In this document: positions 25,787 to 39,148 of the stretch, in pieces | Position numbering within the stretch: position 1 is the stretch's first letter | Layout of the letters: every line of letters begins with the position of its first letter | Assembly: GCA_016795155.1 (NCBI GenBank) | Contig: JAEUIE010000008.1 | Coordinates: 1-64,000 of the forward strand | Length of the DNA stretch: 64,000 bases | Direction: 5' to 3' | From: Planctomycetia bacterium | GTDB lineage: Bacteria; Planctomycetota; Planctomycetia; Gemmatales; HRBIN36 | Translations under genes and position numbers: made by a program | Notes under the pieces: model-generated | Seen by the model: the letters and a program-made list of their open reading frames with translations, nothing else | What the model was told of the DNA's origin: nothing | Databases searched by the model: none

Positions 25787-25924
25787 GAGTCAGTTAGAAA
25801 ACTCGGTTGATGTGGCAGGGTCATGCATGTACTCATGCTTGACCCTGAGATCTGCAGAATTTTGCTCTCCCAGCAGGGTCGAGCGGAGTACCGCACGACC
25901 CTGCCACCGTTTTTCAACTGACTC
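25787..25924. repeat. Double-hairpin repeat, copy B, with extended inverted ends
   Basis: The core runs from GTGGCAGGG at 25812 to CCCTGCCAC at 25907. Hairpin 1 is CATGCATG-TACT-CATGCTTG; hairpin 2 is CGAGCGG-AGTA-CCGCACG. Here the outer inverted repeat extends further, GAGTCAGTT at 25787 matching AACTGACTC ending at 25924, directly against the stop codon of the ECF gene. It fills most of the gap between the ECF gene and the kinase gene. Confidence 0.85.
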
Positions 25925-37142: not shown

Positions 37143-37190
37143 ACTCAACTTTATGCAATTTGTTTTTACCCAGAAGACTATAGATAAACC

Positions 37191-37288
37191 GTGGCAGGGT
37201 TATTCGGTACTCCGAATGACCCTGCTGGATGAAATTGAACTCAGCAACTTTGCAGGGTCATGCTTGAGTACAAGCATATCCCTGCCAC
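37191..37288. repeat. Double-hairpin repeat, copy C
   Basis: Bounded by GTGGCAGGG and CCCTGCCAC. Hairpin 1 is TTATTCGG-TACT-CCGAATGA; hairpin 2 is CATGCTTG-AGTA-CAAGCATAT. Both carry the shared apical TACT/AGTA and CAGGGT/ACCCTG arms. It lies between the DUF6807 gene and the NIPSNAP gene, ending 39 bases before the latter. Confidence 0.88.
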
Positions 37289-37327
37289 AGCTTTCGAGTT
37301 GGTAAATAAGCTCAAGGAAACATTTCG

Positions 37328-37747
37328 ATGCGTTATAAGATCATTGCTGCACTGCTGTTGGCGTTTGCCACAGGCTGGCTGGCTCAAACTGTACTGGCTC
37401 ATTCTCGTGAAGATGCCAACCGGGTTTTCGAATGGCGGATCTACACCGTGCTGCCCGGCAGAATGGATGCCATGAATGCCCGCTTCAAGAACCACACCAA
37501 TGCACTGCTGACGAAACATCACATGACTTTGCTAGGCTTCTGGCAACCACAAGGTGAAGAGAACAGCCGCAAGCTTTACTATCTAATTGCGCACCAGAGT
37601 CGCAAAGAAGCTGAAGCAAACTGGAAGGCATTCGTTGCTGACCCTGACTGGATCAAGGCCCGCGATGCTTCCGAAAAGGATGGAAAAATTGTCGAGAAGG
37701 TGGAACGCATCTGGCTCGACCCTACTGAATACTCCATGATGAAGTAA
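37328..37747 (+). CDS. Exported NIPSNAP family protein
   Basis: A 139-residue protein. Residues 1-24 are a signal peptide (MRYKIIAALLLAFATGWLAQ, cleavage near VLA-HS). The mature part is a ferredoxin-like alpha/beta NIPSNAP domain: VFEWRIYTVLPGRMDAMNARF, then HHMTLLGFWQP, LYYLIAHQSRKEAEANW and FVADPDWIKARDA. Bacterial members are small dimeric proteins of uncertain role, sometimes linked to stress or small-molecule binding. The next gene begins 15 bases downstream, and a third overlaps that one, so the three form a likely operon of exported proteins. Confidence 0.9.
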   Translation: MRYKIIAALLLAFATGWLAQTVLAHSREDANRVFEWRIYTVLPGRMDAMNARFKNHTNALLTKHHMTLLGFWQPQGEENSRKLYYLIAHQSRKEAEANWKAFVADPDWIKARDASEKDGKIVEKVERIWLDPTEYSMMK

Positions 37748-37762
37748 CCTTCAGGTGAATCT

Positions 37763-39148
37763 ATGATTCTGGTGAATAACTGGATAGCAGTGGCAGGGTT
37801 ATGCTTGTACTCATGCATGACCCTGCTGGAATGCAATGTCTCTGCAATTCCTGCAGGGTCATCCGGAGTACCGGATAACCCTGCCACAGTTTTTCAGCAA
37901 TGTACGATCCTTAGTAGCTGGCCTTTGACGTGCATCCCTACGGATGAAGTGACAGATTCATGGACTCGTTTCCGCGGCCCCAATGGCTCAGGCCACGGTT
38001 CAGGCCTGAAGTTGCCTACGGATATCAATGAACAGTTCATCCGATGGAAAGTGCCTCTGCCCGGAGTCGGGCATGGCTCTCCCGTGGTTCACAAAGGTCG
38101 CATCTACCTGCAGGCATCGGAAAACCAGGGCACCGAGCGGCTCATTTTCTGCCTGGATGCTTCATCAGGGAAAATACTCTGGAAACGAAGCATCCAGGGC
38201 AAGCGGGCTGCAGCCATGCATCAGAAAAACTCGCTGGCGTCCGGCACCGCTGCTACCGATGGCGAACGTGTTTTCTTCTGCCATTGGGATGGTCAGACAG
38301 TTCAGCTTGCTGCCTACTCCTGTGCCCAGGGTGAACCACTCTGGACGTTTCCACTCGGTAAACATGTCAGCCAGCATGGTGCAGGGTACTCTCCCATCCT
38401 GGTAGAAGGCAAAGTGATTGTGGCCTACGATGCAGATAACCACGCTGAGGTATTCTGTATCGAAGCAGCTACCGGGAAAAAACTCTGGTCGCAATCACGC
38501 AAAAACTATCGAGCCTGTTATGGAACCCCGCTGATCCGTTCCCGCAAACCCCACGATGAAGTGATCGTCGCCAGCACGGCGGGTATCACTGGCTATGCAT
38601 TGGAGTCTGGTCTGAAGTTATGGGACATGGAATGGCCTTTCGCCAGCAAACCACTCCGTAGCGTCAGTTCGCCTGTGCTTTGTGACAACGACATTCTGCT
38701 GGCTGCCTGTGGCGATGGTGGAGGCGACCGTGACACTATTGCACTGCAACTTCCGACGGGCGATACCTCACAGGAACGACAGCCAAAACTGGTCTGGCAA
38801 CTCCACCGCGATATCCCCTATGTCACCTGCCTGCTCGAACATCAGCAGAACATCTTTTACGTTGCGGATAAAGGTGTAGCAGGCTGTCTCGATCTCAAGA
38901 CTGGCAAGGAACGATGGGCCCAGCGCCTGTCAGGCAATTTCACTTCGTCTCCGTTGCTGGTTGATAAGCACATCTTCGCAGTCAATGAGAATGGAGAACT
39001 GTTCATCTTCGAAGCCAACGCAGAAAAATATCACTTGCGCGGGCGACTGAAATTGAATGAAGATGTCCTGGCGACACCAGCACTGGCTTCGGGAAACCTC
39101 TTGATCCGAGGGAAGCAACATCTGTTTTGTCTCGGAGTGGCGAAGTGA
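37763..39148 (+). CDS. Exported PQQ-like beta-propeller protein; N-terminus encoded by a repeat
   Basis: A 461-residue propeller of the PQQ-binding-like type. The core begins at DSWTRFRGPNGSGHG and has repeated blades with G-x-x-x-W motifs, for example SGKILWKRSIQGKR, TGKKLWSQSRK, GLKLWDMEWPF and TGKERWAQRLSGN, giving about seven blades. The ATG at 37763 has AGGTGA nine bases upstream. From that start, residues 10-42 are encoded by double-hairpin repeat copy D, and they supply the only hydrophobic export-like stretch (WIAVAGLCLYSC, lipobox-like). Without them the propeller would have no signal. Starts inside the repeat or a GTG after it are alternatives. The last bases overlap the next gene (GTGA). 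Confidence 0.82.
   Translation: MILVNNWIAVAGLCLYSCMTLLECNVSAIPAGSSGVPDNPATVFQQCTILSSWPLTCIPTDEVTDSWTRFRGPNGSGHGSGLKLPTDINEQFIRWKVPLPGVGHGSPVVHKGRIYLQASENQGTERLIFCLDASSGKILWKRSIQGKRAAAMHQKNSLASGTAATDGERVFFCHWDGQTVQLAAYSCAQGEPLWTFPLGKHVSQHGAGYSPILVEGKVIVAYDADNHAEVFCIEAATGKKLWSQSRKNYRACYGTPLIRSRKPHDEVIVASTAGITGYALESGLKLWDMEWPFASKPLRSVSSPVLCDNDILLAACGDGGGDRDTIALQLPTGDTSQERQPKLVWQLHRDIPYVTCLLEHQQNIFYVADKGVAGCLDLKTGKERWAQRLSGNFTSSPLLVDKHIFAVNENGELFIFEANAEKYHLRGRLKLNEDVLATPALASGNLLIRGKQHLFCLGVAK
37790..37887. repeat. Double-hairpin repeat, copy D, inside the start of the propeller gene
   Basis: Bounded by GTGGCAGGG and CCCTGCCAC, 98 bases long, as is copy C. Hairpin 1 is TTATGCTTG-TACT-CATGCATGA; hairpin 2 is CATCCGG-AGTA-CCGGATAA. 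It is in frame with the propeller gene and has no stop codon in that frame. Confidence 0.88.

Follow-up and report, generated by a model that had tools for sequence, protein, structure and literature searches.

Four paired-hairpin elements in the 64-kb window

The window analysed here, i.e., the whole stretch of 64 kb of DNA, contains four copies of a repeat in which two hairpins (REPs) face each other in inverted orientation across a spacer. On the + strand, a full copy of 98 bp spans positions 37191-37288 (106.7 bits in a genome search with model R1) and comprises a CGG-type REP (37191-37225), a spacer (37226-37251), and a CATG-type REP (37252-37288) with the stem variant CTTG/CAAG. Directly ahead of its GTGG foot lies AACC (37187-37190, + strand), and its final CCAC is followed by AGCT (37289-37292, + strand) with CT at +3,+4; we regard these as a putative left cleavage site of the C[CT] type and a putative right cleavage site, respectively. 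The second full copy of 98 bp at 37790-37887 matches on the - strand (106.8 bits with R1) and is divided into a CATG-type REP (37790-37826), a spacer (37827-37852), and a CGG-type REP (37853-37887), with the stem CCGG/CCGG. Two more copies on the - strand belong to a subfamily II that is distinguished by a mismatch at a second position, namely, a full copy of 96 bp at 25812-25907 (93.7 bits; stem GCGG/CCGC) and a decayed one at 575-676 (44.3 bits) with a GATGG/CCATC stem in the REP at the end away from 575. The motif GCAGGGT-N8..30-ACCCTGC is found four times in the window compared with 0.01 expected from shuffled sequence.

A preliminary description of this DNA had already pointed to these four places, to their apical TACT/AGTA loops, and to lengths of about 96-98 bases. 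Direct reading of the sequence and the model scores bear this out, with 96, 98, and 98 bp for the full copies. Two details had to be corrected: the copies at 37191 and 37790 do not lie on the same strand because their best matches are on + and -, respectively, and the first copy does not lack its left end since 575-676 aligns over the whole model, with the end near 575 mutated (CTAGCAGATC).

The layout had been likened to that of REPINs, tiny non-coding mobile elements that are known from many bacteria and best studied in gamma-proteobacteria. They are linked to RAYT proteins (TnpA_REP), i.e., Y1/HUH nucleases related to IS200/IS605 transposases. This assignment is supported by the inverted arrangement of the REPs, the GT[AG]G foot, ends that are conserved around a variable spacer, the intergenic position, and the covarying stems. 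Across the family, the terminal inverted repeats read GTGGCAGGGT...ACCCTGCCAC over a length of about 98 bp, and GTGG stands at the hairpin foot in nearly all 33 rows of our alignment A2 (from which L082 and L083, both without the upper right stem, and one nested duplicate were omitted and to which the decayed window copy was added). Identity among the 17 main copies amounts to 93% in the REPs at the ends and 60% in the spacer. The paired REPs of one element are unlike in the main subfamily, with a CGG-type upper stem facing a CATG-type one, so the element has a direction, which in the model search is + for 37191-37288 and - for the other three window copies.

An open reading frame at 37763-39148 includes the REPIN at 37790-37887 without a frame break and continues as a PQQ-repeat-like protein (TDSWTRFRGPNG). 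With translation from 37763, a hydrophobic segment resembling a signal peptide would come from the REPIN, and a start after the REPIN is equally likely; our in-house codon-score gene script places the gene start behind it at 37925. Adjoining the decayed REPIN, the sequence GGCGTTCCGGGCTG...ACTCTCA at 517-545 is similar to what flanks a Y1 gene (L021) on contig C58. An Rfam scan of the window at the gathering threshold returned a tRNA only and nothing at the REPIN places.

Copy number, position, and covarying structure

As the preliminary description had proposed, we searched the genome, a 5.28-Mb draft of 68 contigs that is about 97% complete, with a covariance model, which was built from 21 copies. 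The search revealed further copies, with 115 matches representing both strands of about 65 places. From these, 62 places were extracted by leaving out the three weakest (E 0.6-4.4), and 35 of them score at least 54 bits, including three in the window. Several of the extracted places below 54 bits belong to sister families (C53:188185, C22:81529, C5:179980, and others). The 10-mer GTGGCAGGGT occurs 78 times in the genome compared with seven times for a control, and 48 of these occurrences form 24 pairs within 150 bp that are all inverted and head-out at 74-90 bp (0.09 expected).

Beyond this genome, the model gave weak matches in 5 of 102 searched genomes of the order (own genome not counted) and in 2 of 30 relatives; the ones from G077, G079, and G081 belong to a GTGGCCGG type and share the GTACTC tip. 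As far as the searched genomes show, all of them from other genera, the GTGGCAGGGT family appears to be lineage-specific, and our literature searches on REPINs and RAYTs in Planctomycetes, planctomycete palindromes, and Gemmata REPs found no paper on it. In a genome of another genus (G051; L187, L190, L193, L194), CCCAGGGTAGCCGGAGTACCGGCTACCCTGGG hairpins and CTACCCCGAAGGGGTTGCATAAA repeats occur in pairs, with the same GTAC tip. Within the genome studied here, the subfamily II REPINs at C22:84181, C22:101626, and C21:23086 have common outer flanks starting with GCCCGGA, which suggests nested copying. When we sought an empty site via the outer flank of C22:101626, long recurrences were found only at C22:84181 and C21:23086, both of which bear the REPIN; no site lacking the element was found.

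Over 33 copies, 91.7% of the cells in the two-hairpin structure are paired, and 70 are doubly changed compared with 18.3 ± 3.3 in shuffles (a value reached in 0 of 500) and at most 13 in slid controls. One of five covariation measures, "further pair types", did not rise above shuffles (193 of 500). Variation is highest in the upper stems and low in the foot, the lower stem, and the loop. The earlier reading of the stem differences as compensatory thus holds in general (22 doubly changed cells in 21 copies, reached by 0 of 500 shuffles), with the exception of the CATG-type stem of 37790-37887, in which one T.T mismatch is left. Neither a lack of further copies nor non-compensatory stem differences, the two outcomes named beforehand as speaking against the family, was found. 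We also considered a single long hairpin as the structure under selection and rejected it, since 41 of its cells are doubly changed and 86.3% are paired, compared with the values for two hairpins given above. RNAalifold predicts a mixture of both forms, and the long pairing arises because the two ends of the element are inverted copies. It may exist as an additional form.

All 35 strong copies (at least 54 bits) lie outside genes predicted with our in-house script, in a genome whose window portion is 82% coding, and two of the 27 weaker matches do overlap such a gene. The strong copies are located between codirectional (22), convergent (11), or divergent (1) genes, and one is found at an edge. 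A gene's 3' end is no more than 50 nt away in 29 of 33 classified copies, and 18 of the 22 codirectional ones are closer to the end of the upstream gene (p = 0.002). Together with the covarying stems, this preference would suit a transcribed RNA element such as a terminator, a 3'-end stabiliser, or a small RNA whose structure is selected in RNA. However, the copies occur in both orientations relative to genes, the mismatch is T.G in one REP and C.A in the other, and the family is without an Rfam match. In addition, G.U and A.C are equally common among wobble cells (13 and 12, respectively, with the mismatch columns 11-30 and 76-96 omitted), which gives no sign of selection on one RNA strand. 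We therefore consider it very unlikely that the family is an RNA element in the first place, while a secondary role of GTGGCAGGGT REPINs in transcripts is possible.

The covarying stems are interrupted in a regular way. Every left REP of the 33 copies has one non-Watson-Crick pair between the lower and the upper stem, located at alignment pair 11-30 in subfamily I (22 of 22) and at pair 13-28 in subfamily II (11 of 11). The right REPs have theirs at 76-96 in most of subfamily I (17 of 22) and at 78-93 throughout subfamily II (11 of 11). Where the first position is paired in subfamily II, the second is broken, and the window copies carry their mismatches 5-8 pairs from the loop. Such retention of one mismatch per hairpin at either of two positions (mostly so in right REPs) is a new observation. 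Hairpins beside the RAYT genes on contigs C32, C44, and C10 likewise have TACT/AGTA loops and a single mismatch at a distance of 6-7 pairs from them, as does an element on contig C22 (L027:451), and two of three TACT/AGTA-type hairpins from another genus (L149) are without a mismatch at that place. For the E. coli enzyme, it is the unpaired state of the bulge that counts and not its sequence, according to the part of Corneloup 2021 (PMC8266576) used here.

Flanking sequences

Flank statistics were obtained from 33 copies (35 minus two nested duplicates) that were treated as independent. The bases at -2,-1 ahead of GTGG are CT or CC in 25 of 33 (background 0.108) and those at +3,+4 past the far end are CT in 22 of 33 (background 0.061), while just 10 of the 33 show the upstream C[CT] on the opposite strand (Fisher p = 0.0005). 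Exact target duplications were found in none of the 33 copies at any length from 2 to 9 nt. Cleavage at CT has been described for REPs with GTAG, and a Marinomonas enzyme cuts at CC or CA once GTAG is changed to GTGG (Corneloup 2021, PMC8266576, in the part used here). The flanks of our copies would fit one cut left of GTGG and another four bases past the other end; alternatively, the C[CT]/CT bases could reflect a target preference or a copied flank. It is likely that the flanks bear cut-site marks, which is new for these elements. A MITE, i.e., an internal-deletion derivative of a DDE insertion sequence that moves by cut-and-paste, would share the terminal inverted repeats GTGGCAGGGT...ACCCTGCCAC and the length of about 98 bp but is extremely improbable given the absence of target duplications, the separate covariation of the two internal hairpins, and a GT[AG]G foot with C[CT]/CT flanks that suit Y1 enzymes.

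Several copies have inverted flanks such as CTGTTGA...TCAACAG around C44:280599 and C22:113672 (p = 0.003 in a local-alignment test of 35 sites, nested duplicates included), and exact palindromes of this kind occur only three times in the genome. Insertion into a pre-existing palindrome or terminator was not upheld when the joined flanks of 32 sites were folded (p = 0.07 with 25 nt; p = 0.3-0.4 with 40 nt).

RAYT genes and the proposed mobilisation of the family

A search for RAYT-type genes, likewise proposed in the preliminary description, was successful in part: the genome encodes RAYTs, and in the 68-contig draft assembly none of them was found flanked by GTGGCAGGGT. That a search of the draft located no fitting enzyme gene beside the GTGGCAGGGT hairpins is also new. 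At lax E-values, Y1_Tnp and NCBIfam NF047646 each gave ten matches in the genome, and the proteins encoded on contigs C32 (90.7 bits) and C5 (92.5 bits) pass the NF047646 cutoff of 80 bits. The C32 protein further matches the E. coli TnpA_REP structure 4er8 (E = 6e-6) over two segments containing the HUH motif and the tyrosine helix, presumably the catalytic parts. Its gene sits between two 94-bp GTGGCACTGT REPINs which resemble the GTGGCAGGGT family as inverted doublets with a GTGGCA foot, a T.G/C.A mismatch, and TACT/AGTA loops, and differ from it by another lower stem and few copies (19 10-mers compared with 15 for the control); their C[CT]/CT flanks are unclear, with the left signature in 1 of the 2 and the right one in neither. 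Among 102 genomes of the order, 28 (own genome included) encode homologues of the C32 RAYT, and several of these homologues are flanked by REPs with CGGTACTCCG tips. The RAYT gene on C44, a broken gene on C22, and a gene fragment on C10 adjoin other hairpins.

The C5 RAYT (L026, about 109.9-110.6 kb) was considered as the cognate enzyme and rejected, as the nearby GTGGCAGGGT at C5:109410 lies inside an open reading frame and is not a REPIN; this gene has GTGGGTCACGATTGTATCGTGAC...CCCAC doublets in tandem arrays at its borders. The idea that a TACT loop marks a single RAYT clade was not supported. On a 22-row tree with weak deep forks, clustering was as good in 318 of 500 shuffles, and since the RAYTs with TACT loops are not grouped, the loop alone points to no single enzyme.

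The C22 gene (L174:5243-5821; C22:103242-103820) has a single in-frame TGA and is flanked by GTGCCATGCCCACC hairpins. At C10:57117 (L207), the C-terminal part of a truncated RAYT lies between two GGTGCCCTAGTCTGGTCGTACTCGACC-type hairpins. Four more Y1 transposase genes (L018 and L020 on C8, L019 on C59, and L027 on C22) have their own palindromic repeats on both sides, e.g., GCCCCAACGGGGC and GGCTCCTTCGGAGCC, so the genome holds several hairpin-bounded Y1 systems.

With a probability of about 0.86, we interpret the family as REPINs, i.e., non-autonomous mobile DNA of two inverted REP hairpins that would be copied as single-stranded DNA by a RAYT. We observe the structure and its covariation, the copy number, an intergenic position near 3' ends, the lack of target duplication, the flank signature, and REPs of the same design flanking RAYT genes. 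From its GTGG foot upwards, each REP consists of a lower stem, the one mismatch that is retained, an upper stem of 4-7 bp that changes pairwise, and a TACT loop, with mismatch and loop as probable recognition marks. A RAYT of this clade may nick behind the C[CT] preceding GTGG and, on the other side, behind the CT that lies four bases past the far end; from these nick positions, the mobile unit would span GTGG to ...CCACNNCT.

The GTGGCAGGGT family is thus a REPIN family of an already known kind. It shares inverted REP doublets, conserved ends, a variable spacer, intergenic location, and compensatory changes with the REPINs of P. fluorescens SBW25 as described in the part of Bertels and Rainey 2011 (PMC3116915) used here, but is of other sequence, has unlike upper stems left and right that give it a direction, numbers tens instead of hundreds of copies, and its cognate RAYT was not located. 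With E. coli TnpA_REP and other REPtrons, for which cross-activity on foreign REPs is described and GTGG leads to CC in the Marinomonas enzyme, it has in common the GT[AG]G foot and probably also a bulge that acts through its unpaired state and cleavage at CT, and differs by GTGG with C[CT] flanks, a mismatch at either of two positions, and a conserved TACT loop where the corresponding passages of Corneloup 2021 (PMC8266576) give the E. coli loop a structural role only. Tagged palindromes in head-to-head dimers have been described from Planctomycetes as GTAG/CGTC-tagged REPs, including those of Rhodopirellula baltica, and GTGG is the main form in one family of Opitutus terrae (both from the portion of PMC3733652 used here, which does not mention the GTGGCAGGGT family). 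One class of Y1 nucleases is reported mainly from Planctomycetes, Acidobacteria, and Proteobacteria in the consulted part of PMC6006769, and population models of REPINs exist (PMC8049555, cited in part).

For the cognate RAYT of the GTGGCAGGGT family, the alternatives are that it was lost and left the family orphaned, that its gene falls into an assembly gap, or that the C32 RAYT may have replaced it in trans. An orphan population whose copies only decay is compatible with the REPIN interpretation, and we rate it at somewhat below even odds. The draft yielded no cognate RAYT, this genome has two broken RAYTs of the same clade (C22 with one in-frame stop and C10 as a C-terminal fragment), and exactly such a fate was proposed in the part of Nunvar 2013 (PMC3686654) used here. 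However, the ends of the 17 main copies are still 93% identical, and in a 68-contig draft of 97% completeness the gene may be absent from the assembly only. We are more doubtful about a further version of the REPIN interpretation in which the RAYTs of this clade would read a structural code of TACT loop and mismatch, so that the C32 RAYT might sustain several families in trans, including GTGGCAGGGT with its gene lost and its stems drifting in a compensatory manner.

The missing cognate gene makes trans-mobilisation a concrete question. Beyond this, the 33 copies amount to a natural mutagenesis of a REP in which foot, mismatch, loop, and pairing were kept while the letters of the upper stem and the spacer were free to change. 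This genome's own RAYTs would allow a direct test of two predictions, namely, the movable yet retained mismatch and the C[CT]/CT flanks.
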